From the NCBI GenBank assembly GCA_028714695.1, contig JAQTLX010000004.1, positions 62,001-126,000 of the forward strand: DNA of 64,000 nucleotides, in the 5' to 3' direction. The notes under the pieces are model-generated. The model did not search any database. It was not told the DNA's origin and worked only from the letters and a program-made list of their open reading frames with translations. The position numbers were made by a program, and so were the translations under genes. This document shows, piece by piece, positions 40,238 through 54,077 of the stretch; within the stretch, counting starts at the first letter, position 1; each line of letters starts with the position of its first letter. Source of the DNA: Ignavibacteria bacterium (GTDB lineage Bacteria > Bacteroidota > Ignavibacteria > Tepidaquicellales > Tepidaquicellaceae).

Positions 40238-41056
40238 ATGTTCAATACCTTAAAAAAATTAAGGATATTTTTTCCTTTTAGGAAAAAGGACAATAAATCT
40301 GAAGATTCATTTTCAAAAGCAGTCAAGAAAATTGATTTTGAGAAGTTTCAGGAGTCTATACATTATAAAATTATAGATAAAGCTTTCTTTACAAATGCGC
40401 TTACTCATCGTTCTTTCCTTAAAATCAGAAAAGACCCCCAGAAATTCGATTTAATTTCGAATGAAAGACTTGAATTTCTCGGGGATGCTGTTCTTGATTT
40501 AATCGTTGCGGAATTTCTTTACAGAAACTTCCCTTTAAATGAAGAAGGCGATCTGACAAAATTCCGTTCAATACTCGTAAACAAAAGATTTCTTGCCGAA
40601 AGAGCAAAGAATATCAGAATTCAGGACTACCTCCTCGCATCGAATACTGCATTAAAGTCAATCGATCAGGGTTATGATGCGATTCTTGCTGATGCTTACG
40701 AAGCCCTTATCGGCGCAATATTTCTTGATTCCGGATATGAAAATGCCAAGAAATTTTTGAATCACGAAATATTTTCAAAACTGGACATCAAGTGGCTTAA
40801 CCAGTTTGACGAAAACTACAAGAGCCGCTTCCTTGAATACGCACAGGCGCATACGGATTACATTCCCGAATACAAAGTAATAAAAGAAGAAGGACCGGAA
40901 CACCATAAACTGTTTACTGTTGAAGTGCATCTCGCCGGTCATTGCCTTGGTATCGGAAAAGGAAAATCAAAGAAACAGGCAGAACAGGAATCGGCTAAAA
41001 ATGCACTTCAAAATCTCGATGCAATCGAAAAATTAGGGATTAAGACTAAACGTTAA
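40238..41056 (+). CDS. rnc: ribonuclease III
   Basis: About 272 residues. Endonuclease for double-stranded RNA. RNase III signature NERLEFLGDAVLDLIVAEFLY and the second acidic cluster DAYEALIGAIFLD, followed by a C-terminal double-stranded RNA-binding domain (YKSRFLEYAQAHTDYIPEYKV; GKGKSKKQAEQESAKNAL). N-terminal ~35 residues are an extra basic stretch. A hairpin AAGACTAAACG/CGTTTAAGTCTT overlaps its stop codon and runs into the -35 box of the next promoter. Confidence 0.96.
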   Translation: MFNTLKKLRIFFPFRKKDNKSEDSFSKAVKKIDFEKFQESIHYKIIDKAFFTNALTHRSFLKIRKDPQKFDLISNERLEFLGDAVLDLIVAEFLYRNFPLNEEGDLTKFRSILVNKRFLAERAKNIRIQDYLLASNTALKSIDQGYDAILADAYEALIGAIFLDSGYENAKKFLNHEIFSKLDIKWLNQFDENYKSRFLEYAQAHTDYIPEYKVIKEEGPEHHKLFTVEVHLAGHCLGIGKGKSKKQAEQESAKNALQNLDAIEKLGIKTKR

Positions 41057-41074
41057 TTTTATTTCGTTTAAGTC

Positions 41075-41105
41075 TTGACAATCTTTTCTATCAATTATAT
41101 TTTTG
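41075..41105 (+). promoter_or_regulatory. promoter of the first porU copy
   Basis: TTGACA (41075-41080), a 17-base spacer, and TATTTTTG (41098-41105, TAnnTTTG consensus of Bacteroidota sigma-A). Predicted start near 41112. The second porU copy has the same arrangement. Confidence 0.8.
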
Positions 41106-41111
41106 AATAAA

Positions 41112-41255
41112 TTAAAAGGAGTAAACAAGAGAATAAGATTACTTTTTTAAAAACAAATAATCGGATATGCAAAATATATAAACCATTTGTTAAAGTTATT
41201 TAAATTTAATTTACCTTTAAATTTGGTTTTTGTTTTTATAAAGTAAATCATAAAA
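41112..41255 (+). promoter_or_regulatory. conserved leader of the first porU copy
   Basis: About 144 bases with AAAAGGAG at the 5' end (41114-41121), a 4-codon mini-reading frame ATGCAAAATATATAA at 41167-41181, the block ACCATTTGTTAAAG (41182-41195), and an imperfect hairpin closing with TTTGG then TTTTTGTTTTT. No Shine-Dalgarno lies next to the porU ATG. The same blocks occur at the same spacing before the second copy. Confidence 0.6.
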
Positions 41256-44200
41256 ATGGATAAGATAAAATTCTTATTTCTCTTAACCCTGTTAATCTGC
41301 ACTTCTGGTATATTTTCTCAGATTGATAAATCTTCTGAAGTCCGTAAAAACAACAAATCTGTAAGCGACTTCATCTTAATCTCGTCCGATAATAAATCAA
41401 TAGCGCTGGAGTATACTCCGGTTTATATCGGGAATACGGAATTTTTGAACTCAATACATCACTCAAATGAGACAGGAAAGCCTGACTTGCCTTCAAGAAA
41501 TTTTCCTGTTATTACTCCGTCCGGAAAGAATAATGTTTTAGAGATTTATGAAATAAATTTCGAAGAAATAACTAATGTAACGGTAAAACCTGTACCCGCT
41601 CCAAAACGCACGGAAAAAAGCCGTGAGATATATTATGATTATAAGAACGACAACACGGTTTATTCGATGAACAAGTATATTCCTGAAACAAGCGCTTCTT
41701 TTTTTAACGACGGCATAGTTCGGAATAAATACACAGGATATATTAACATTAATCCTATACAATACAACCCGGTAACTAAGACTCTGAAAAGAATAAAAAA
41801 CATAAAAATACGACTTACTTTCGGTGACAATCCGCTATATATAAACCAACCTCAGTCTAAAAATGAAATTGAATTTTTTAGAGATATAGCAATTAACTGG
41901 AAAAATACAATCAACTGGTCAACAGCGGATTTTAACAAAAAACATATTATACAAAACAGTGTTTTGGCAAACGGTGATTTTTACAGAATTGAAATTCGGG
42001 AAACCGGAATCTACAGGATGGATAAGAGTTTTCTGCAGCAGGCCGGGATTAATGTAAACAACATTGACCCGAGAACTATTAAAATATACGGAAACGGCGG
42101 AGCGGAACTTCCATATAATAATGATTCTCCCGCGCCGATTGACCCTGTGGAAAATGCAATCTATGTAGAGGGAGAATCTGACGGCGTCTTCAATGATAAT
42201 GATTATATATTATTCTATGCCCAATCACCCCATCAGTGGATGTATTCACAACCAACAGGTTTTTATCACAGCCTTAATCATTATTCAAATTCGAATTACT
42301 ATTTGCTGACGTTTGGAGGCTCGAACGGAAGAAGAATGCAGACCTTCAATTCGTCAAATTTAACAGGAATTACTCCCCTTCCGTATTTTAAGGAAAAATT
42401 TTTCGAAGAGCCCGAAGTTAATAACCTCGGCTCGACAGGTTTGTTATGGGTCAGCCAGAGAATAGGCTCAGGTGAAGGATTTGTGTTCAACAGAGAATTG
42501 AAAGGATACATAAGTGGCACTGACATAATATTAACTGCGATACTTGAAAATGGATCTGTGAAACTTGATGCCAGATATCTTATAAAAGATGAAAACTCGA
42601 ATTTATCCGTATTGCTTAATCCGATACCCGGTTTGGATAATGAAAGTTTTTCTCATATAAATCCGGTAAAGACTGATATTAATTATCAATTGAACAGCGG
42701 GATGTCGAGTATGAATCTGAAAATATCTTTGCCTCAGCAGTTAAATAATTCTTCCGTATCCGGCTACTACGATTATCTGGAAATATTTTATAAACGTGCA
42801 TTTTCGAGCGTTTCCGGGAATTACTTCAAGTTTACTTCACCTGATACTTCCGGTATATTGGAATATCAGGTTTCCCCTCTCAGTTCGGGTAATACGAAAT
42901 TATTCAGAATAATAAATTACAATACAGTCGATTTAATAAATCCGATTTCATATTCCGGTGGTACTGTCAGATTCCAGGATAATGCAATACAGGGGCAGCC
43001 GATGGATTATTATGTAGTTGGTGATATGAATTACAAAACACCTGCGTCAGTTTCTCTCAAAATGCAAAATCAGAATCTAAAAGGTTTTTCCGAAGGAGCA
43101 GATTATATAATTATTGCGCCGACAGAATTTTTATCGGCTGCAGGTAGATTAAAGACAATAAGAGAATCGGGCGGACCCGGAAATCCCAATTACCTGAAAA
43201 CACTTGTCGTGGATATTAATCAGATTTATAATGAATTTTCGGGATGTGTTCCTGATCCGGTTGCGATGAGAAACTTTCTTAAATATGCATTCAACAACTG
43301 GCAGACAAAGCCTGTGTATGTATTATTTCTGGGAGACGGAAATTATGATTATAAAAATATACTCGGTCTATCCGTTAAGAATTATATCCCTCCTATTGAG
43401 AAAACAAGCCCCACTATGGACGAAATTGACAGTTATTGCAGTGATGATTTTATTACTGAAATAAACGAGAATTATGACGCTCCTCATTACGGGAAAACGG
43501 ATTTTTCATGCGGAAGATTTTGCATTAACTCGCAGAATGAGGCTAACAGTATTATTGATAAGATTGTAGAATATGAATCAAGTTTATATAACGGCATTTG
43601 GAAAAAAAAGATTATGTATTGCGCGGATGACGGATGGATTACAAATCAGCAAATTCCCGGAAGCGAAGGAGATATGCATGTGCAGCAATGTGAAAACCTT
43701 GCGGAAGACTATACACCCGGAGATTACGAAAAAGAAAAAATTTATATTGTTGCTTATCCAACTGTCATTACTCCTCTCGGAAGAAGGAAACCGGGTGCAA
43801 ATATTGATATAATAAAAGGATGGAACGACGGGCGGCTCCTTATAAACTGGACCGGACACGGCAGTACGGATTTGTGGGCACACGAACACATATTTGTAAA
43901 AAGCGAATCAATTCCCCAATTGCATAATAAAGGGAAATACCCGGTTGTGACAATAGCGAGTTGCGATCTTGCCCGCTGGGATGATCCATATATAATCAGC
44001 GCGGCTGAAGAATTACTATTTGTAAATGAATCCGGCGGAATAGGCATTGTCGCTGCAACAAGACCTGTATTTTCTCAACAAAACGAAATATTAAACTATA
44101 AACTATGGACTAATCTGGCTATGACAAAAGACGATTCTAATATGCCACTGCGAATCGGTAAAGCCTTTTATAATACCAAGAATCAAATACCCGGCGGTCC

Positions 44201-45320
44201 GGAGGATAATGACATGAAATATGTTCTATTGGGCGATCCCGCATTACGATTTACGATGCCACAATATTTCACTCGTATTGACAGCATTAATACAACATCG
44301 AATAACGATACCGCTATAGTAAAAGCCCTTCAGAAAATGACAATATCCGGGAGTATTCTAAGAACCGATTCCACATTCTGGAATAATTTTAACGGGAACA
44401 TAATTGTAAAGGTTTTCGATGTTGAAAGACATATATCACTCGTTGATTTTGACAAACCGTTCAACTTTAAAATTGATGGCGGTGCAATATTTAAAGGAAA
44501 TACCGGCGTTAGTAACGGAAAATGGGTTATTGAATTCATAGTTCCTAAGGATATCTCATATAACAACGGCACGGGAAAAATCCTTGCCTATTTCTCTGAC
44601 AATAAAAATGAAGGCTCCGGTTATTCGAATATGTTTAAATTAATGGGATTGGATACCACTGCAAGAAATGATACAACCGGTCCTGTAATTTCGTTGTTTA
44701 TGGACAGCAGAAATTTCAAATCCGGCGATATTGTGAATCAAAACACTAAAATTATCGCCGATTTCTACGATGAAAGCGGCATTAATCTGACAGGTGTTAT
44801 CGGTCACAATATCGAAACGATAATCAATAACGACGAAAATAATAAAATCAATCTGACTTCAGTTTATAACTCAACGACAAATTATAAGTACGGTACTCTG
44901 GAATATCCGCTTACCGGGCTTGCTGACGGTTCTTATACTCTAAAACTAAGAGCATGGGATACGTACAATAATTTTTCGGAAATCAGTACTACATTCTCCG
45001 TTAAGAACAATCAGTATCTTGCAATTAATAATGTGTTTAATTATCCGAATCCGATGACTGATGCTACTGCGTTTACTTTTCAACATAATTTTGATATTCC
45101 CCTGTCGTCTCAAATCGACATTTATACAATTGCGGGAAGAAAAATTAAGACGCTAAAAAGAAATAATATTATGGACAAGTTTGTTTCAATTCAATGGGAC
45201 GGCAAAGACGAAGACGGTGATAATATTGCAAACGGTACCTATATTTACAAAGTCATCTTGAAATCGGAAGACGGATCATATTCTAAAGTTCAGACCGGAA
45301 AACTGGTGAAATTGAAATAA
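41256..45320 (+). CDS. porU: PorU-like C25-family peptidase with T9SS sorting domain (copy 1)
   Basis: About 1354 residues. Signal peptide near residues 1-22, an N-terminal domain of ~450 residues, the C25 (gingipain-type) peptidase domain with the catalytic pair His868 (NWTGHGSTD) and Cys903 (TIASCDLARWD), then Ig-like regions and a C-terminal T9SS type-A sorting domain with a FlgD-like repeat (NYPNPMTDATAFTFQ; WDGKDEDGDNIANGTY). PorU is the T9SS sortase that cleaves the CTD of exported proteins and attaches them to A-LPS. It is followed by a second porU copy and porV, the physical partner of PorU. Assignment as sortase rather than an ordinary secreted C25 protease rests on size and the porV neighbour. 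Confidence 0.85.
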   Translation: MDKIKFLFLLTLLICTSGIFSQIDKSSEVRKNNKSVSDFILISSDNKSIALEYTPVYIGNTEFLNSIHHSNETGKPDLPSRNFPVITPSGKNNVLEIYEINFEEITNVTVKPVPAPKRTEKSREIYYDYKNDNTVYSMNKYIPETSASFFNDGIVRNKYTGYININPIQYNPVTKTLKRIKNIKIRLTFGDNPLYINQPQSKNEIEFFRDIAINWKNTINWSTADFNKKHIIQNSVLANGDFYRIEIRETGIYRMDKSFLQQAGINVNNIDPRTIKIYGNGGAELPYNNDSPAPIDPVENAIYVEGESDGVFNDNDYILFYAQSPHQWMYSQPTGFYHSLNHYSNSNYYLLTFGGSNGRRMQTFNSSNLTGITPLPYFKEKFFEEPEVNNLGSTGLLWVSQRIGSGEGFVFNRELKGYISGTDIILTAILENGSVKLDARYLIKDENSNLSVLLNPIPGLDNESFSHINPVKTDINYQLNSGMSSMNLKISLPQQLNNSSVSGYYDYLEIFYKRAFSSVSGNYFKFTSPDTSGILEYQVSPLSSGNTKLFRIINYNTVDLINPISYSGGTVRFQDNAIQGQPMDYYVVGDMNYKTPASVSLKMQNQNLKGFSEGADYIIIAPTEFLSAAGRLKTIRESGGPGNPNYLKTLVVDINQIYNEFSGCVPDPVAMRNFLKYAFNNWQTKPVYVLFLGDGNYDYKNILGLSVKNYIPPIEKTSPTMDEIDSYCSDDFITEINENYDAPHYGKTDFSCGRFCINSQNEANSIIDKIVEYESSLYNGIWKKKIMYCADDGWITNQQIPGSEGDMHVQQCENLAEDYTPGDYEKEKIYIVAYPTVITPLGRRKPGANIDIIKGWNDGRLLINWTGHGSTDLWAHEHIFVKSESIPQLHNKGKYPVVTIASCDLARWDDPYIISAAEELLFVNESGGIGIVAATRPVFSQQNEILNYKLWTNLAMTKDDSNMPLRIGKAFYNTKNQIPGGPEDNDMKYVLLGDPALRFTMPQYFTRIDSINTTSNNDTAIVKALQKMTISGSILRTDSTFWNNFNGNIIVKVFDVERHISLVDFDKPFNFKIDGGAIFKGNTGVSNGKWVIEFIVPKDISYNNGTGKILAYFSDNKNEGSGYSNMFKLMGLDTTARNDTTGPVISLFMDSRNFKSGDIVNQNTKIIADFYDESGINLTGVIGHNIETIINNDENNKINLTSVYNSTTNYKYGTLEYPLTGLADGSYTLKLRAWDTYNNFSEISTTFSVKNNQYLAINNVFNYPNPMTDATAFTFQHNFDIPLSSQIDIYTIAGRKIKTLKRNNIMDKFVSIQWDGKDEDGDNIANGTYIYKVILKSEDGSYSKVQTGKLVKLK

Positions 45321-45542
45321 AATATATATAATTATTTATTGGATATTCATAAATTACTGAAATTTTTTAATTTCAAATTTACAAATTTCGGTAAGCGTAA
45401 TTGAATAATTTATGTTTGTTTTTTACAACGGTTTTCGATATTTTTATTAAGATTGCAGCATAAACAGCGGGATTTGAAATTCGATTAATTTAAAATTTGA
45501 AAACCTGTATTTCGAACTGTAATTAATAAATTATTTTCAGTA
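45321..45542. other. AT-rich gap between porU copies
   Basis: About 220 bases with no gene, no tRNA and no convincing terminator. An imperfect inverted repeat ACTGAAATTT/AAATTTCGGT is present near 45356-45392 but has no T run. Spacer ahead of the second porU promoter. Confidence 0.5.
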
Positions 45543-45573
45543 TTGACAATATTTTAAATCCGTTATATCTTTG
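45543..45573 (+). promoter_or_regulatory. promoter of the second porU copy
   Basis: TTGACA (45543-45548), a 17-base spacer and TATCTTTG (45566-45573). Identical layout to the first copy's promoter, with transcription expected to begin near 45580. Confidence 0.82.
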
Positions 45574-45579
45574 CATATA

Positions 45580-45725
45580 TTTAAAAGGAGCAAAATACAG
45601 AGTATTTCTTACATTTTGATAATTAAAATAATTAATGAAGAGTTCATAGACCATTTATTAAAGGTACGGGAAATAGAGTAACTTTTAATAAGTGGTTTTT
45701 TGTTTATATAAACAAAGCAAATTAA
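45580..45725 (+). promoter_or_regulatory. conserved leader of the second porU copy
   Basis: About 146 bases. AAAAGGAG at 45583-45590, mini-frame ATGAAGAGTTCATAG at 45635-45649, block ACCATTTATTAAAG, and a hairpin with 15 continuous pairs (45651-45665 against 45681-45695, two G-U) followed by T6 (45696-45701). It resembles an intrinsic terminator placed 25 bases before the ATG. Spacing from GGAG to ATG is 135 bases, against 134 in the first leader. Confidence 0.62.
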
Positions 45726-48700
45726 ATGAAAAAGTTTAGAATTATAATAATCATGATTGTGCTTTTAGGTTCTTCGGGAGCATACGCCCAGTATAAAACC
45801 AAAACCGACAATCAAAATAATGTTATAAAATCTGTAAACGATTACAGAGTATTATCGTCAAGTAATACATCGGTTGAACTGGAATATACTCCGGTATATA
45901 ACGGTAATTCGGATTTTATAAATTCTATTCACAATTCAGGTGATTATGGAAAACCCGACGTGCCTTCAAGAAATTTCCCGGTAATGACGCCTTCGGATAA
46001 AAATAATTTGGTAGAAATTACAGAAGTTACTTATGAAGAGATACAGAATATTGACATAAAACCAATTCCTACCCCTAAACGCGCAGATAATAAACTGGAA
46101 ACCGTATTTGATTTTAAATATGACAGCAAAATATATACGGCAAACAAATTTTTCCCTGAAAAAAATGTCCTTCTAATTAAAAGCGGAATTTTAAGAAATA
46201 AATATATTAGTACAATTAAGATTAATCCCATATTATATAATCCTCTCACCAGAGTCGTTAAACGAATTAAGACTCTGAAGATTCGTGTCGTATTCGGAGA
46301 TAATCCTTTGTACGTCAATAAAATACAATCAAGAGCCGAAATTGAATTTTTAAAAGGGCTTGCTCTGAACTGGGAGAACGCAAAAAACTGGTCAACGCCT
46401 GAATTTAACAAAAAACCTCTTGTCCAAAACAGCGTACTTGCATCCGGAGACTTTTATAAAATTGAAGTCCGTGAGACAGGAATGTATAAACTTGATAAGA
46501 ATATTCTTACTCAAGCCGGAATCAACGTTAATAACATTGACCCCCGTACAATAAAAATATACGGGAACGGAGGAGCCGAACTTCCTTATGATAATTCAGT
46601 AGCATCTCCGACGGACCTCGTCGAAAATGCAATTTATGTCCAAGGCGAATCGGACGGCGTGTTTAATGATAACGACTATATTGTATTTTACGGACAATCT
46701 CCGCATCAGTGGACGTACAATACTTCAACCAATTATACTCACAATATTAATCATTATTCAAATTCGAATTATTACTGGATTACATTCGGCGGCGCTAACG
46801 GAAGGCGCATGCAGACAGTCAATTCGCAGAATGTTTCAGGATTGTCGCCTTTGCAGTCTTTCACGGATAAGTTCTTTGAAGAACCCGAAGCGAATAATCT
46901 CGGTTCAACAGGTACGCTTTGGGTGAGCCCGAGAATAGGCTATGGAGATGGTTTTGTATTCAACAGAGAATTAAAAGGATATGTCAGCGGTTCTGACATT
47001 ACTCTGACTGCTGTTCCTGCAAACGGAACTATTGCAATGAGTTATGCAACCTTTCTAATAAAAGACGATAATTCGAATTTTTCTACGATTGTTCAGATTG
47101 CGGATGTTAACAGCGCTTTTTCACACATAAATTTATATGATCCGCCCTTAAAGGCAACTTATCAATTGTTTCCGGGACAGACTAGTATAAATCTTAAAAT
47201 GTCATTGCCTCAGCAGTATAATGTTTCGACGGTTGCAGGATATTACGATTATATAGAATTGCTATATAAACGATCATTCGGCAGTGTTTCCGGAAATTCA
47301 TTGAGGTTTTCTTCGCCCGATACATCAGGAATAATGGAATATCAGGTTTCAACATTCAGTTCATTGGCAGTTAAACTGTTCCGAATAGATAATTATAATA
47401 CCGTAGATTTAATCAATCCTATTTCATATTCAAATGGAGTACTGAGATTTCAGGATAATGCGGTTCAGGGTGTACCAACGGATTACTATTCAATCGGCGA
47501 TCTAAATTACATGACTCCTGTTTCAATCTCCCAGCGGGTACAAAACCAGAATATTAAAGGAAATGCGGATGGCGCCGATTACATTATAATCTCCCCTACT
47601 GAATTTTTGTCTGCCGCAACTAATCTGAAGACATTACGCGAGAGCGGCGGTCCGGGAAATCCGAGTTATTTAAAAACTCTTGTTGTGGATATAAATCAAA
47701 TTTACAATGAGTTTGGCGGAGGTATTCAGGATCCGGTTGCCATGAGAAATTTTCTGAAATATACGTATTTTAATTGGACTACGAGACCTGTTTATGTGCT
47801 ATTCCTCGGAGACGGTAGTTACGATTATAAAAATATTTACGGTCTCTCAACTAAGAATTTTATTCCGCCGATAGAGAGAAACTCGCCGACCATGGATGAA
47901 ATTTCCAGTTATAACAGCGATGATTTTATTACCGAAATAAACGAAAGTTTTTCCGAACCTTCTCCTTCGAAAACCGATTTTGCCAACGGAAGATTCTGCG
48001 TGAATTCCCTTAACGATGCAAACGCTGTCGTTGATAAAATTGCACTCTATGAATCGAGCGCGAGTAACGGAATTTGGAAAAAGGAAATAATGTATTGCGC
48101 GGATGACGGTTGGACAACGGAACAGAATCAGGGACAGGAAGGCGATATGCATACAAGGCAGTGCGAATCAATTGCTGAAGATCATACACCGAAAGATTTT
48201 GAGAAGGAAAAAATTTATATAGTTGCATACCCTACGGTAATCACTCCTCAGGGAAGAAGAAAACCGGGTGCCAACATTGATATTATTAAAGGCTGGAATG
48301 AAGGTCGTCTTCTGGTAAACTGGACGGGTCATGGAAGCACTGACTTATGGGCGCACGAACACATTTTTGTTAAGGACGAATCGATTCCTCAACTTCATAA
48401 TAAAGGCAAATATCCGGTAGTTACGATTGCGAGTTGCGATCTGGCTAGATGGGATGATCCATACATTATAAGTGCAGCGGAAAAACTCCTGTTTATTCCG
48501 GATGCCGGCGGAATTGGCATAATAGCGGCTACAAGACCTGTTTATGCAAACTATAATGAAGCATTGAATGATTTACTGTGGGATAATTTGATGTATGTTA
48601 AAGATACACTCAATTTGCCGATACGAGTCGGCAAAGCATTGTATTACGTTAAGAATCAACTTCCGGGAGATCTGACTGTCGAAAATGATATGAAATACTG

Positions 48701-49796
48701 TCTGATAGGAGATCCTGCAATGAGGATAAGCATTCCACAATATTTTACGAAAATTGACAGTATAAACAATACGTCTGGAAATGACACTGCAATTGTTAAG
48801 GCTCTTCAAAAAGTTAAAATTTCAGGCAGCGTGTTAAGACCTGATTCAACATTCTGGAGCAATTATAACGGTGATATTGTAATTAAAGTATTCGATGTTG
48901 ACAGACAGATATCAATGATTGATTTTAATATGCCATTCAGTTGGAGACTCGATGGCGGCACTATTTATAAAGGAAATACGAAAGTAATAAACGGGAAATG
49001 GACTCTTGAATTTATTGTCCCGAAAGACATTTCTTATAACACCGGAACCGGTAAAATTTTGGCATATTTCGGCAATAATAATTCCGAGGGCTCGGGATAC
49101 TCTAATCTGTTCAAATTAACAGGTCTGGATACTTCTGCAGTTGCGGATACAACAGGACCTGTGATTTCATTGTTTATGGACAGCAGAAATTTCAAAACCG
49201 GAGATCTGGTTAATCAGAATACAAAAATAATTGCCGATTTTTATGATGCCAGCGGAATTAACCTTACCGGCGCAATCGGACATAAGATAGAATCTATTGT
49301 AAACAACGACGATAACAGTAAAATTGATTTGACCCCGTACTATAATTCAACTTCGGGATATCAATATGGCTCCCTCGAATATCCTCTGACAGGTCTCGCA
49401 GACGGCAATTATACGTTAAAATTGAAAGCCTGGGATACTTATAACAATTCAAGTGATGCGAGTATTACATTCACGGTCAAAAGCGCTCAAATACTCTCAG
49501 TAAATAATGTGTTTAATTATCCAAACCCGATGACCGACGGAACTGCATTCACATTCCAGCATAATTTCGATATGCCTTTAACTACACAAATTGATGTTTA
49601 TACGGTAGCCGGAAGGAAAATTAAGACTATTAAAAGAACTAATATAATTAGTAAATTTGTTTCCATAGAGTGGGATGGAAAAGATGAAGACGGTGATTAT
49701 ATTGCTAACGGAACATATATTTACAAAGTGATTGTCAAAACAGAAGACGGTTCGTTCTCAAAAGTTCAGACCGGAAAACTAGTGAAATTAAAATAA
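45726..49796 (+). CDS. porU: PorU-like C25-family peptidase with T9SS sorting domain (copy 2)
   Basis: About 1356 residues, a full-length paralogue of copy 1, colinear from signal peptide to sorting domain. Catalytic pair intact: His869 (NWTGHGSTD) and Cys904 (ASCDLARWD). Conservation is highest around the active site and the C-terminal CTD (NYPNPMTDGTAFTFQ; GKDEDGDYIANGTYIYKV) and lower in the N-terminal ~450 residues and the region near residue 460. Two intact copies suggest divided roles rather than decay. It is 30 bases upstream of porV with a strong RBS between them, so copy 2 is the one in the porV operon. Confidence 0.85.
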   Translation: MKKFRIIIIMIVLLGSSGAYAQYKTKTDNQNNVIKSVNDYRVLSSSNTSVELEYTPVYNGNSDFINSIHNSGDYGKPDVPSRNFPVMTPSDKNNLVEITEVTYEEIQNIDIKPIPTPKRADNKLETVFDFKYDSKIYTANKFFPEKNVLLIKSGILRNKYISTIKINPILYNPLTRVVKRIKTLKIRVVFGDNPLYVNKIQSRAEIEFLKGLALNWENAKNWSTPEFNKKPLVQNSVLASGDFYKIEVRETGMYKLDKNILTQAGINVNNIDPRTIKIYGNGGAELPYDNSVASPTDLVENAIYVQGESDGVFNDNDYIVFYGQSPHQWTYNTSTNYTHNINHYSNSNYYWITFGGANGRRMQTVNSQNVSGLSPLQSFTDKFFEEPEANNLGSTGTLWVSPRIGYGDGFVFNRELKGYVSGSDITLTAVPANGTIAMSYATFLIKDDNSNFSTIVQIADVNSAFSHINLYDPPLKATYQLFPGQTSINLKMSLPQQYNVSTVAGYYDYIELLYKRSFGSVSGNSLRFSSPDTSGIMEYQVSTFSSLAVKLFRIDNYNTVDLINPISYSNGVLRFQDNAVQGVPTDYYSIGDLNYMTPVSISQRVQNQNIKGNADGADYIIISPTEFLSAATNLKTLRESGGPGNPSYLKTLVVDINQIYNEFGGGIQDPVAMRNFLKYTYFNWTTRPVYVLFLGDGSYDYKNIYGLSTKNFIPPIERNSPTMDEISSYNSDDFITEINESFSEPSPSKTDFANGRFCVNSLNDANAVVDKIALYESSASNGIWKKEIMYCADDGWTTEQNQGQEGDMHTRQCESIAEDHTPKDFEKEKIYIVAYPTVITPQGRRKPGANIDIIKGWNEGRLLVNWTGHGSTDLWAHEHIFVKDESIPQLHNKGKYPVVTIASCDLARWDDPYIISAAEKLLFIPDAGGIGIIAATRPVYANYNEALNDLLWDNLMYVKDTLNLPIRVGKALYYVKNQLPGDLTVENDMKYCLIGDPAMRISIPQYFTKIDSINNTSGNDTAIVKALQKVKISGSVLRPDSTFWSNYNGDIVIKVFDVDRQISMIDFNMPFSWRLDGGTIYKGNTKVINGKWTLEFIVPKDISYNTGTGKILAYFGNNNSEGSGYSNLFKLTGLDTSAVADTTGPVISLFMDSRNFKTGDLVNQNTKIIADFYDASGINLTGAIGHKIESIVNNDDNSKIDLTPYYNSTSGYQYGSLEYPLTGLADGNYTLKLKAWDTYNNSSDASITFTVKSAQILSVNNVFNYPNPMTDGTAFTFQHNFDMPLTTQIDVYTVAGRKIKTIKRTNIISKFVSIEWDGKDEDGDYIANGTYIYKVIVKTEDGSFSKVQTGKLVKLK

Positions 49797-49826
49797 TTTA
49801 AAAAATACTTAACGGAGGTAAATTTA

Positions 49827-50942
49827 ATGTTTAATAAAATGAATGTAAGAACAGGAGTCGTTTTTGTACTGATATTGTTATCAATGGTATCGTTTGAAAA
49901 GGCTTATTCACAAAACACAATTTCAACCGGTGTGCCGTTTCTGCTTATCGGTCCAAACTCAAGATTTGCAGGTATGGGTGAAACAGGAACTGCAATTTCT
50001 GACGATGCTACTGCAATGCACTGGAATCCATCCGGACTCGCTTATCAGACAACCGGCACTGAAATTAACTTTACACACTCTCCATGGCTTGCGGGACTCG
50101 GATTATCAGATCTTTTTTATGATTATCTTGCCGCTAAAAAATATGTGAAAAGTATTAATGGAACGGTTGGCGCAAGTTTGACGTATCTTAATATCGGTGA
50201 AGTTATTACTACGGACGAATTCGGTAATCAAACCGGTAAGAACTATAAAGCCTACGAATTTGCCTTCGCTCTGGCATACGCTACTAAGGTCAGCAAGCAA
50301 ATCGGCGTGGGTGTATCCGCAAGGCTGATTTACAGCAGACTTTCACCTAATAATGTTACTGTCGGAAATGAAAAAGGTACAGGAACAGCGTTTTCTACAA
50401 GTTTTGATTTATCAATGTTATACAGACCTACAAATGGTCCGAAATTTTTAAAAGACAGATTTTCGTTCGGTGTTAATTTATCGAACATGGGTCCGAAAAT
50501 TTCTTACGTAGATGCCGCTCAGGCAGACCCGCTTCCTACGCAATTAAGAATCGGACTTGCTTACAAGATATTTAAAAACGAAGGTAATGACCTTACTCTG
50601 GCTGCGGATTTCTCGAAATTGCTTGTTAACAGAAATGCAGACAACACTGCCGATCCTTTCTATAAAGCCTTTGCAACTTCATGGAGGGGCGGAGTTAACG
50701 GAATTGCAAGATCTATACAGTCGTCTGTCGGTATGGAATACTGGTATGGCAGCCCGAAACTGATTGCCCTGAGAGCAGGTTACTTCTACGAAGATCCCTC
50801 AAACGGTAACAGAAGATTCATAACGCTTGGCGCAGGTATTAGATATTCATTATATGGTTTCGATTTCAGTTATATTACGGGAACTGAAGATAACCATCCC
50901 CTTGCCAATACTCTGAGATTCGGGTTAATTGTTAGTTTTTAA
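49827..50942 (+). CDS. porV: PorV/PorQ family outer-membrane protein
   Basis: About 371 residues. Signal peptide, then a FadL-like beta-barrel with the family's N-terminal signature (PFLLIGPNSRFAGMGETGTA, DDATAMHWNPSGLAY). PorV is the T9SS outer-membrane protein that binds cargo CTDs and shuttles them to the PorU sortase. Very good RBS (CGGAGG at 49813-49818). Downstream of both porU copies. Distinguishing PorV from PorQ by eye is not certain, but the porU neighbour favours PorV. Confidence 0.85.
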   Translation: MFNKMNVRTGVVFVLILLSMVSFEKAYSQNTISTGVPFLLIGPNSRFAGMGETGTAISDDATAMHWNPSGLAYQTTGTEINFTHSPWLAGLGLSDLFYDYLAAKKYVKSINGTVGASLTYLNIGEVITTDEFGNQTGKNYKAYEFAFALAYATKVSKQIGVGVSARLIYSRLSPNNVTVGNEKGTGTAFSTSFDLSMLYRPTNGPKFLKDRFSFGVNLSNMGPKISYVDAAQADPLPTQLRIGLAYKIFKNEGNDLTLAADFSKLLVNRNADNTADPFYKAFATSWRGGVNGIARSIQSSVGMEYWYGSPKLIALRAGYFYEDPSNGNRRFITLGAGIRYSLYGFDFSYITGTEDNHPLANTLRFGLIVSF

Positions 50943-50974: not shown

Positions 50975-51007
50975 AAGGCATATATTTACATGATATATGC
51001 CTTTTTT
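50975..51007 (+). terminator. intrinsic terminator after porV
   Basis: AAGGCATATAT-TTACATG-ATATATGCCTT stem of 11 bp followed by T6. It lies only 29 bases upstream of the M6-like gene's ATG, so that gene must rely on read-through or a promoter I do not see. Confidence 0.85.
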
Positions 51008-51035
51008 CCTTAATGCAAATTATTTAATTGACACA

Positions 51036-54000
51036 ATGAAAAAGTTAATATTGTTCTTTTTGGTTTTATTTCTTAGCGTTAATGCTTATTCACAAAATGT
51101 TAAGAATTTAAAATTATCGCATCAGTTGAAATCCCGTGTTGAAAACAACACGTTTCCGAAAAAATTTACGACTGCCGCCGATACGATAAAAGTCGTGGGA
51201 ATACTTGTCCAGTTTCAACAGGACAATACTTCATTTACCACAGGTGACGGAAGATTTGACCTGTCAAATAAATATTATAATCCTGCTTTGCAGAGAGATA
51301 CCGTAATTGACTCCCCTCCTTATGATAGTTTGTATTTCATAGACCATCTGGAGTTCCTGAAGAATTATTATTACAAAGCATCAAAAGGAAAATTAATCAT
51401 CAATTATGAGTTGCATGGGAAAGTTATTACATTGCCCAAAAAAATGCAGGAATATTCTCCTCAGAGAAACGAAAGCAATGCAAAACTCGGACAGTTTTTT
51501 GTTGATGCATGGTCTTCGGCTGACAGTATAATCGATTTTTCAAATTACGATCAGGCTAAAACGGCATTCGTTATATTTCATGCGGGCGCAGGCAAAGATA
51601 TTGACCTGACTTCGATTTTTGGATACGACCCTACTCCTTATGATATTCCTTCACTGTATCTTGGAATTAAATCATTAAAAGAAATTTTCGGCAGCACTTA
51701 TGAAGGTTTTCAGGTAAATCATGGTTTCAAAATAAGCAATTCGCTGATATTGCCTTCAACGGAATTAAGAGAAATAGAAACATTAGGACAAACTTCACTT
51801 CTTAAACTCGGAATGAACGGCTTTCTCGTGGCAAATATTGGCAGTTACCTCGGGTTACCCGATTTGTTCAATACACAAACAGGCAATACCGCTATTGGCA
51901 GATTCGGATTAATGGACGGACAATCATTCTTTAGTTATCTGGGTGCATTTCCTCCCGAACCTTCGGCATGGGAAAAAATATACCTCGGCTGGGTTCAGCC
52001 TGTGACGATTTCATACGGCGATGCATTATTCAATCTTAAATCAAGTTCTACAGATGAATTTAAAGATTCAACAATATATAAAGTTTTAATAAGCAGTAAA
52101 GAATATTTTTTAATAGAAAACCGTAACAGAAATCCCTTTAATACGGGACAGAAAGTATATCTCAGAAATCGCGCATTCAGGGATTCTACTCTCTATACAA
52201 AAGATATAGCGGGATTTAGCGCCTCAGATATTTCGGGGCTTCATGGCAATCTTTACAACGTTTCATATCTTGACTGGAGCCTGCCCGGCTCAATAGATGA
52301 TACATCAAACTACAGAGGCGGTGTTTTAATCTGGCATATAGATGAAAACGTAATTGATGCAAATTTCGGAACGAATACAATTAATAATGACCCCAGACAT
52401 AAAGGCGTTGCGGTAATGGAAGCAAAAGGTTCGCAGGATATCGGTATTTCTTACAGCACACCTTTCGGTACAATTATAAGCGACGGCTCGTTTGTGGATT
52501 ACTGGTACAATGGTTATCATTTTGTCCCGTCGACAATTTATCAGAATAGATTTACACCGTCATCAACTCCCAATTCATTGAGTTATTCTCTGGCCAATAA
52601 TAATATTTTTATAACGGACTTCGATTCAATATCGTATTCGATGAAATTGAGAATTAAAATAGGAAGCGATGTTATTTCACCTGTCCCCGGTTTTCCTAAA
52701 AATCTTGGAAGCGCAGCCGTGAATGAATATTCGCAGGTAATTCCGATTGATATAAATAGAAACGGGAAGGAGGTTTTGTTCGTAAACAACGGACAGAATC
52801 TTTACGCTTTCAATAACAACGGAACAGGCTTGACAACTAACAACGGTCTGTTGTTCAACGGATACGGTTCATATCCTGTTTTGTACGGTTATTACGGATA
52901 TCTGAATGATTTCAGAATCGGAGGAATACAGAATAACACTGCCGGTTCTTCTTTTGTTACATTTAAATTAAATTCCGGAATAATCTCCGATACAAATATA
53001 ACAAATTTCACAAAAAAAGTTTCGGCTGCTCCGATTATTTTGGATTCATCCAAAATAGTTCTGGGTTTTGAGAACGGATACGTAATTGAAAAATCTCTGA
53101 CAGCAAATCAACTTATTAATAAAGACACAACGCTGAAGGCAGCGATAACAAGATTTACAAGAGATAATCAACAGAATTACAGATATTCATACTCACCTGT
53201 TACTAATATCATTTCAGGCAATTTCTTCTCGGCAAATTCCGCAGATTCCCTTCAATTGTATAATACAGGCGAAGTAAGAATAAACGGTTCAAAAGTAAAT
53301 ATTAACTATTCCGATGCATTCAGAAACGTGATTGCCTGTGATATAAATAAAGACAACAGGCAGGAAATTATTTTTTCAAACGGGAATCAATTATATGCCG
53401 TAAATTCAAACGGAATCCTGCTTGATAATTTCCCTGTGAAACTCACTTCCCCAGTTACATCGGGATTTTCGGTATGCGATATCAACGATGACGGTAACTT
53501 TGCTGTTATATTTGTAACTGCGAACGGCGATCTTTACGCTGTCGGAACAAACGGGAGGACATTAAACGGTTTCCCGTATAAAATCGGACCTAACACATAT
53601 TCAACTCCCGCATTATATAATTATTCCGATACTCTTGCAATATCGGTTATTTCAAGCGACGGATATCTTTATTCTTTTAAAACAAATCATCCTTATAAAG
53701 CACAGAACATTCTCTGGAAAAATTACTTAAGGGATAAGGACTTTTCGAACAATAATTTCAGAGGCATTTATAATCCGCCGGTGTATTCGGAAAAACTTCC
53801 GAAAGATAAAGTTTATAACTGGCCGAATCCTGTTTATAACGGACGAACTTTCATACGCTATTATATAAACGGAAATGCAGGTAACGTTACAATAAAGATT
53901 CTAGACCTCTCCGGCGAACTGGTTACGAAGTTAAACGGCACGTCCTACTCAAATGCGGAAAATGAGGTTATCTGGGATGCAAGCAAAGTGCAGAGCGGTG

Positions 54001-54077
54001 TTTATTACGGAGTTGTTGAAGCAGCAGTTGACGGCTCTACTGAAACAAAGATAATTAAAATTGCTGTTGTAAAATAA
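51036..54077 (+). CDS. M6-family metalloprotease homologue with lost zinc motif, T9SS-exported
   Basis: About 1013 residues from the ATG at 51036. An earlier in-frame start at 50997 lies inside the porV terminator. Signal peptide, M6 (immune-inhibitor-A-like) domain through ~residue 420, beta-rich propeller-like repeats (YAFNNNGTGLTT; YAVNSNGILLDNFP; YAVGTNGRTLNGFP), and a C-terminal T9SS sorting domain (NWPNPVYNGRTFIRY...VQSGVYYGVVE). The expected zinc motif HExxHxxGxPD is ANIGSYLGLPD (residues 266-276): both His and the Glu are gone while GxPDLF remains. It is therefore probably catalytically dead and may act as a surface binding protein. Confidence 0.85.
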   Translation: MKKLILFFLVLFLSVNAYSQNVKNLKLSHQLKSRVENNTFPKKFTTAADTIKVVGILVQFQQDNTSFTTGDGRFDLSNKYYNPALQRDTVIDSPPYDSLYFIDHLEFLKNYYYKASKGKLIINYELHGKVITLPKKMQEYSPQRNESNAKLGQFFVDAWSSADSIIDFSNYDQAKTAFVIFHAGAGKDIDLTSIFGYDPTPYDIPSLYLGIKSLKEIFGSTYEGFQVNHGFKISNSLILPSTELREIETLGQTSLLKLGMNGFLVANIGSYLGLPDLFNTQTGNTAIGRFGLMDGQSFFSYLGAFPPEPSAWEKIYLGWVQPVTISYGDALFNLKSSSTDEFKDSTIYKVLISSKEYFLIENRNRNPFNTGQKVYLRNRAFRDSTLYTKDIAGFSASDISGLHGNLYNVSYLDWSLPGSIDDTSNYRGGVLIWHIDENVIDANFGTNTINNDPRHKGVAVMEAKGSQDIGISYSTPFGTIISDGSFVDYWYNGYHFVPSTIYQNRFTPSSTPNSLSYSLANNNIFITDFDSISYSMKLRIKIGSDVISPVPGFPKNLGSAAVNEYSQVIPIDINRNGKEVLFVNNGQNLYAFNNNGTGLTTNNGLLFNGYGSYPVLYGYYGYLNDFRIGGIQNNTAGSSFVTFKLNSGIISDTNITNFTKKVSAAPIILDSSKIVLGFENGYVIEKSLTANQLINKDTTLKAAITRFTRDNQQNYRYSYSPVTNIISGNFFSANSADSLQLYNTGEVRINGSKVNINYSDAFRNVIACDINKDNRQEIIFSNGNQLYAVNSNGILLDNFPVKLTSPVTSGFSVCDINDDGNFAVIFVTANGDLYAVGTNGRTLNGFPYKIGPNTYSTPALYNYSDTLAISVISSDGYLYSFKTNHPYKAQNILWKNYLRDKDFSNNNFRGIYNPPVYSEKLPKDKVYNWPNPVYNGRTFIRYYINGNAGNVTIKILDLSGELVTKLNGTSYSNAENEVIWDASKVQSGVYYGVVEAAVDGSTETKIIKIAVVK

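Follow-up and report, generated by a model that had tools for sequence, protein, structure and literature searches.

Tandem porU sortase genes with unequal candidate leader RNAs in an Ignavibacteria bacterium

The porU locus

The window, a stretch of 64,000 nucleotides (contig C4, positions 62001–126000), comes from the genome of an Ignavibacteria bacterium (G000), whose 3.85 Mb assembly is 96% complete with <1% contamination. An initial annotation had placed two PorU-type genes of 1354 and 1356 codons in tandem in front of porV, an arrangement that the open reading frames and their scores against the PorU model NF033707 confirm. Both genes lie on a single contig of 216 kb. The locus includes the following features.

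40238–41056, + strand: rnc, the conserved 5′ neighbour in the family (synteny fabF-rnc-porU-porV)
41067–41242, + strand: promoter and 5′ leader of porU-A, which form one of the two duplicated non-coding units
41075–41105, + strand: porU-A promoter of Bacteroidota type, TTGACA-N17-TATTTTTG, with motif and spacing as in most relatives of the family
41180–41230, + strand: eroded remnant of the leader hairpin of porU-A (best fold −6.9 kcal/mol; 3′ arm unrecognisable)
41256–45320, + strand: porU-A, the upstream copy, 1354 aa (NF033707, 920 bits; His868/Cys903; branch length 0.31 vs 0.16)
45535–45712, + strand: leader of porU-B (promoter and leader), within the A-B spacer
45543–45573, + strand: porU-B promoter, TTGACA-N17-TATCTTTG
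45650–45703, + strand: terminator-like leader hairpin of porU-B, intact and with a T run after it; the sole exact match to the pattern in the genome
45726–49796, + strand: porU-B, the conservative copy adjoining porV, 1356 aa (NF033707, 916 bits; His869/Cys904)
49827–50942, + strand: porV (NF033710, 285 bits; cut-off 250)
50997–54077, + strand: gene for a T9SS-dependent M6-like inactivated metalloprotease (M6i), from synteny and model match (NF052323, 820 bits; cut-off 600)

The porV gene at 49827–50942 is the highest-scoring of 11 PorV-family matches in the genome, the second of which reaches 210 bits. An inactive M6-like metalloprotease gene lies 3′ of porV nearly throughout the class (window positions 50997–54077; L041–L079 and L123–L125), and this near-constant place suggests that its product may have a role in the T9SS.

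Identity of the two PorU copies

The NF033707 model has 1095 positions and a cut-off of 420 bits. Copies A and B cover positions 1–1094/1095 at more than twice that cut-off, and in both the catalytic Cys/His pair lies intact within conserved GHG and SCDLARWDDP motifs, at the residues given above, as had been read from the sequence at the outset. The C-terminal T9SS domain claimed for both proteins is likewise borne out by the extent of the model match and by an FlgD_ig match at the C-terminus, and this domain is presumed not to be cleaved. With copy B as the query, P. gingivalis PorU (6ZA2) is the sole PDB match. Among named relatives, those closest to PorU-A are metagenome genomes of Ignavibacteriae.

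Six C25 genes are present in the genome, and only A and B exceed the PorU cut-off. The other four are a PorU2-like tandem pair on contig C5 and two ordinary C25 proteases that carry type A sorting domains. With PorU2, a putative second type IX sortase (NF052324; cut-off 450 bits), A and B have in common the C25 domain and a weak similarity, and their scores of 188 and 192 bits are well below the cut-off. The C5 pair scores 357 and 353 bits on the same model and falls under the cut-offs of both PorU and PorU2. In a C25-domain tree, A and B are located inside PorU, and the C5 pair forms a separate clade outside it; the tree was built without the genome's two ordinary secreted C25 proteases, which are too distant for alignment to the PorU domain. 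The doubt raised with the initial annotation, that a copy might be an ordinary C25 protease with the true porU elsewhere, is not borne out by these results: neither copy falls among ordinary C25 proteases, and no other C25 gene of the genome exceeds the PorU cut-off. On sequence grounds, A and B are both true PorU sortases, with signal peptidase and sortase activity predicted.

The two proteins resemble P. gingivalis PorU in their full-length match to NF033707, the Cys/His pair, the C-terminal Ig-like domain and the neighbouring porV, and porU adjoins porV in G000 as well as in relatives from several families. The locus differs from that of P. gingivalis, which has one PorU, in that it holds tandem copies, each with a promoter and leader.

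Origin of the duplication

A single PorU scores above the cut-off in each of the 28 other genomes of the family (28/28), and the gene order is fabF-rnc-porU-porV-M6i-glycosyltransferase wherever contigs are long enough. A and B group as sisters in the tree built from 29 sequences of the family, with UFBoot/SH-aLRT support of 100/99, and stand beside G001 and G002. The AU test rejects the grouping of B with G001 and G002 (p 0.003) and that of A with G001 and G002 (p 0.002), and so rejects a duplication that preceded the separation of this lineage from G001/G002. Sites that group A with B outnumber those for rival groupings, though not everywhere (22:14:8). Because A and B are sisters and the alternatives are rejected, the doubling postdates the split from the nearest relatives, a timing that carries the caveat that G001, G002 and G004 are fragmented at porU. 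The two porU pieces of G002 share 141 identical overlapping bases and were read as one gene.

The resemblance between the copies extends upstream of the coding regions. Leader B (178 bases) is 69.6% identical to leader A over 181 columns, and, measured against the one rnc-porU spacer present in G002, identity is 75.8% for leader B and 68.6% for leader A. Each copy carries its own TTGACA-N17-TATNTTTG promoter. As judged from these alignments, the copied unit is the promoter, leader and gene together, non-coding DNA included. A duplicate created during assembly was also considered and is excluded because A and B are only 70% identical.

Selection and rate of change

The A and B proteins are 69.7% identical. 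Their genes differ by 0.22, 0.16 and 0.54 at codon positions 1, 2 and 3, respectively, and by 0.71 at fourfold sites, where 0.74 is expected at saturation. Since copies that are 70% identical have synonymous sites near saturation, both have been kept for a long time under purifying selection, which agrees with the retained function proposed for them initially. Synonymous saturation makes per-domain dN/dS unusable, and codon-position and relative-rate tests were substituted for it. A recent conversion event spanning the active site was rejected as a candidate explanation, given that the best-conserved stretch (91–92% amino acid identity) is still saturated at synonymous sites.

The branch leading to A in the family tree is 0.31 long and that leading to B is 0.16. 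With G002 as the outgroup, unique changes number 165 in A and 99 in B (chi2 16.5), or 164 and 100 in a second count (chi2 15.5); the excess in A is not clear with G003 as the outgroup (chi2 2.3 and 2.4). Changes specific to A are scattered over all domains in about equal ratio, the catalytic domain included. Among 228 positions that are invariant in 27 relatives, seven are altered in A and three in B, and five of the seven changes in A fall in the C25 domain (G664C, T795I, T809V, Q841L and T960D). A comparable share (7/235) is altered in G006, a relative with a single copy. The faster change in A could reflect a shifted specificity.

Divergence at the N-terminus had been offered as an argument for separate cargo or partners. 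This argument does not hold, because PorU orthologue pairs are all poorly conserved in this region: over the first ~160 residues, identity between the single-copy orthologues of G002 and G003 is 0.32–0.51, compared with 0.38–0.51 between A and B, and the changes in A affect every domain.

A candidate leader RNA upstream of porU

In the family of G000 (f1), porU is preceded in 25 of 27 leaders, that of B among them, by a hairpin of 14 base pairs, ACCATTTATTAAAG...CTTTAATAAATGGT, and then a T run. These 25 leaders keep 13–14 of the 14 pairs, and the hairpin is unrecognisable only in A and in G013. Predicted folds span −12.8 to −21.1 kcal/mol for B and the relatives, with B at −21.1 kcal/mol, compared with −6.9 kcal/mol for A.

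The leader in family f2 is a 140-nt element, composed of a main helix and a terminator, with a sequence unlike that of f1 and a different upstream gene. One pair of the f2 helix occurs as GC seven times, as AU five times and as GU twice. When eight f2 genomes were scanned with a covariance model built from f2 (R1), every strong match lay before porU and no wider regulon was seen; the model also gives a weak match before porU of G049. The same model misses the leader in f1, and homology between the f1 and f2 hairpins therefore rests on position and architecture. By position, without support from sequence, the f1 hairpin is likely the same element as the f2 leader. The f2 leaders also contain a candidate antiterminator in which UUCGGUUUUAUAA, mostly invariant, could base-pair with the terminator 5′ arm, UUAUAAAGCCGAA.

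About 45–115 nt into the leader: antiterminator candidate segment (L070, L072, L074 and other f2 leaders)
L070:7555–7695, L079:11176–11294, L163, L164, L146 and L155: examples of leaders

A related helix, TNGTTAAAGG / CCTTTAACNA, is found in families f4, f6, f8, f13, f16, f19, f23 and f60, and is followed in most of them by a terminator-like hairpin. In f10, f18 and f20, the first ~30 bases of porU are instead the pairing partner of the matching 5′ arm. This leader-start pairing has z values of −2.4 to −6.8 in 21 of 22 cases, the exception being the upstream copy of G553, and control genes at the same loci give values of −2.4 to +1.0. In the window, leader-start pairing is absent for A and B (z −2.0 and +0.2). 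The helix arms co-vary across families, with the second pair present as CG, TA, GC or TG, in an alignment made partly by hand and uncorrected for phylogeny. In G491, a second porU at a different locus brings its leader along, which argues that the leader belongs to porU. Searches of Rfam with the window and the leaders of relatives gave no relevant match at E-values up to 1–5.

We propose from these comparisons that a structured leader RNA before porU is conserved across the class, where it would either end in a terminator-like hairpin or sequester the start codon. The hairpin may instead do nothing more than end the upstream transcript. Like riboswitches and other terminator-type leader RNAs, the porU leader has a promoter, a conserved helix, a terminator or start-codon sequestration, and one associated gene. 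It differs from riboswitches in general in being without an Rfam match and in being confined to porU in our scan.

Recurrence of tandem porU genes in the class

A scan of the class covered 391 genomes, 371 of which have a PorU match. The order porU-porU-porV is present in four of the 371, namely G000, G456 and G461 (both f6), and G553 (f18), which overturns the supposition that G000 alone carries such a pair. In G456, G461 and G553 the order is porU-porU-porV-M6i. A second copy in another setting is carried by three further genomes: in G544 (f20), a probable tandem, the two distinct copies lie where contigs end, and in G666 and G491 the second copy is distant from porV. All of these copy counts are lower bounds, with most genomes being metagenome assemblies. 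The original contrast with organisms that have one PorU is nearly right, except that tandem pairs recur in the class.

G249, G286, G438, G512, G647 and G101 were left out of the count, as their two matches look like pieces of a single porU interrupted by a contig end or a frame break. The PorU of G101 is found in two adjacent pieces (L088 and L092; G101:C3:402620–406114), with an apparent frame break, insertion or sequencing error. Outside the class, where about 160 porU-bearing genomes were sampled, G418 has two full copies on different contigs. In this distant member of the Bacteroidota (L128, L129), a porV match is located only beside the C51 copy.

In the tree, the A and B pair, the G553 pair, the G666 pair and the G491/f8 set are each placed within their own family, which indicates separate origins of the doublings. 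The f6 pair is older than the split between G456 and G461; neither species has lost a copy. From the scan and the tree, the tandem porU arrangement is rare, at about 1% of the class, and has arisen at least three times.

The pairs of G456/G461 and G553 share the gene order of G000 and a tendency for the upstream copy to change faster and to have lost part of its leader control; they differ in that they are independent duplications in other families. Unique changes in the upstream and porV-adjacent copies are 161:101 to 183:79 in G553 and 165:109 in G461, with G456 showing the same direction without significance. In both f6 species, the main helix is found before both copies and the terminator hairpin only before the porV-adjacent copy. 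In G553, leader-start pairing is present at the porV-adjacent copy (z −4.4) and absent at the upstream copy (z +1.6). In G666, whose two copies are dispersed, there is no rate asymmetry and both copies keep the pairing. A pattern to test emerges from the three confirmed tandem origins: faster change and partial loss of leader control, both in the upstream copy. It is drawn from three cases only, in which rates were examined before any prediction of leader state. We offer more tentatively, and at less than even odds, the broader idea that an undescribed leader RNA controls porU class-wide, and that the upstream porU of a tandem has repeatedly arisen with broken control to give a gated and an ungated sortase for a single porV.

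Interpretation of the tandem pair

In P. gingivalis, PorU cuts the C-terminal domains of cargo proteins, links the cargo to A-LPS and keeps its own domain (PMC10202324, PMC11285876), and it is inhibited by dimerisation through the beta-hairpin of its partner (reviewed in PMC10202324). All type A cargo of F. johnsoniae passes via PorV (PMC12618676).

Our working model, to which we assign a probability of about 0.5, begins with promoter, leader and porU being duplicated together in tandem, which would have given two PorU sortases with intact active sites, sharing the cell's one clear PorV. Copy B, adjoining porV, would be the conservative copy, gated by the ancestral RNA leader. Copy A, upstream, would have lost the leader hairpin, be less tightly gated and evolve faster. 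Both enzymes would be exported and held at the surface by their own C-terminal domains, and would use the Cys/His pair to cut type A sorting domains off cargo, which they would link to surface lipopolysaccharide or release. Their main difference would lie in the timing and amount of enzyme made, with a slow sequence drift of A besides. The identity of the genes, the duplication history, the long-term selection, the leader asymmetry and the recurrence derive from the comparisons above, and the enzymology is taken from P. gingivalis. We infer a role of the leader in controlling expression, and take differences in expression, not in cargo choice, as the main division between the copies.

Regulatory divergence has better direct evidence than either separate cargo or a heterodimer. 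A division of cargo, in which A and B handle different type A classes or A attaches what B releases, seems rather unlikely. It would fit the larger number of invariant positions altered in A, most of them in C25, and the large cargo set of G000, where at least 150 of 256 candidates have type A sorting domains; yet the changes in A affect all domains in similar measure, single-copy G006 has a similar share of altered positions, one clear PorV serves both copies, and no cargo is linked to either copy. A mixed dimer, with one copy keeping its partner latent or shielding its C-terminal domain, is conceivable by analogy, since type A cargo of F. johnsoniae passes via PorV and P. gingivalis PorU is inhibited as a dimer. 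The two genes are alike in operon position and length and both are intact, and PorU is reported to be latent as a dimer (PMC10202324). Single-copy relatives manage without a second PorU, however, and we regard such a dimer as quite improbable.

Copy A might also be a redundant dosage copy, a spare under relaxed constraint and drifting to loss, as its doubled branch, eroded leader and more frequently changed conserved positions would suggest. This fate is improbable in view of an open frame and a catalytic pair that remains intact past synonymous saturation, the strong bias against non-synonymous change and, in f6, the retention of both copies across two species. An identity of 70% is low for a recent duplicate and might point to a copy from another lineage or to an assembly artefact. 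Such an origin has almost nothing to recommend it when A and B are sisters inside the genus on one 216 kb contig, the leader was copied with the gene and synteny is otherwise unchanged.

Trimming, anchoring or release of T9SS cargo is decided at the PorU step, and the basis of this choice is described as an open question (PMC10202324). The repeated evolution of two sortases offers a comparative handle on that choice, as well as a natural experiment on the need for two sortases. No paper on a duplicated porU or on a porU leader was found in the open-access literature searched, and the leader RNA, if functional, would be the first known RNA-level control of a T9SS sortase as far as that literature and Rfam extend.

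The PorU2-like pair on contig C5 of G000 is itself arranged in tandem (L037:6743–16401). Its genes encode proteins of 1600 and 1619 aa and are accompanied by a WecG/TagA-type glycosyltransferase gene, and similar PorU2-like tandem pairs are seen in many relatives.
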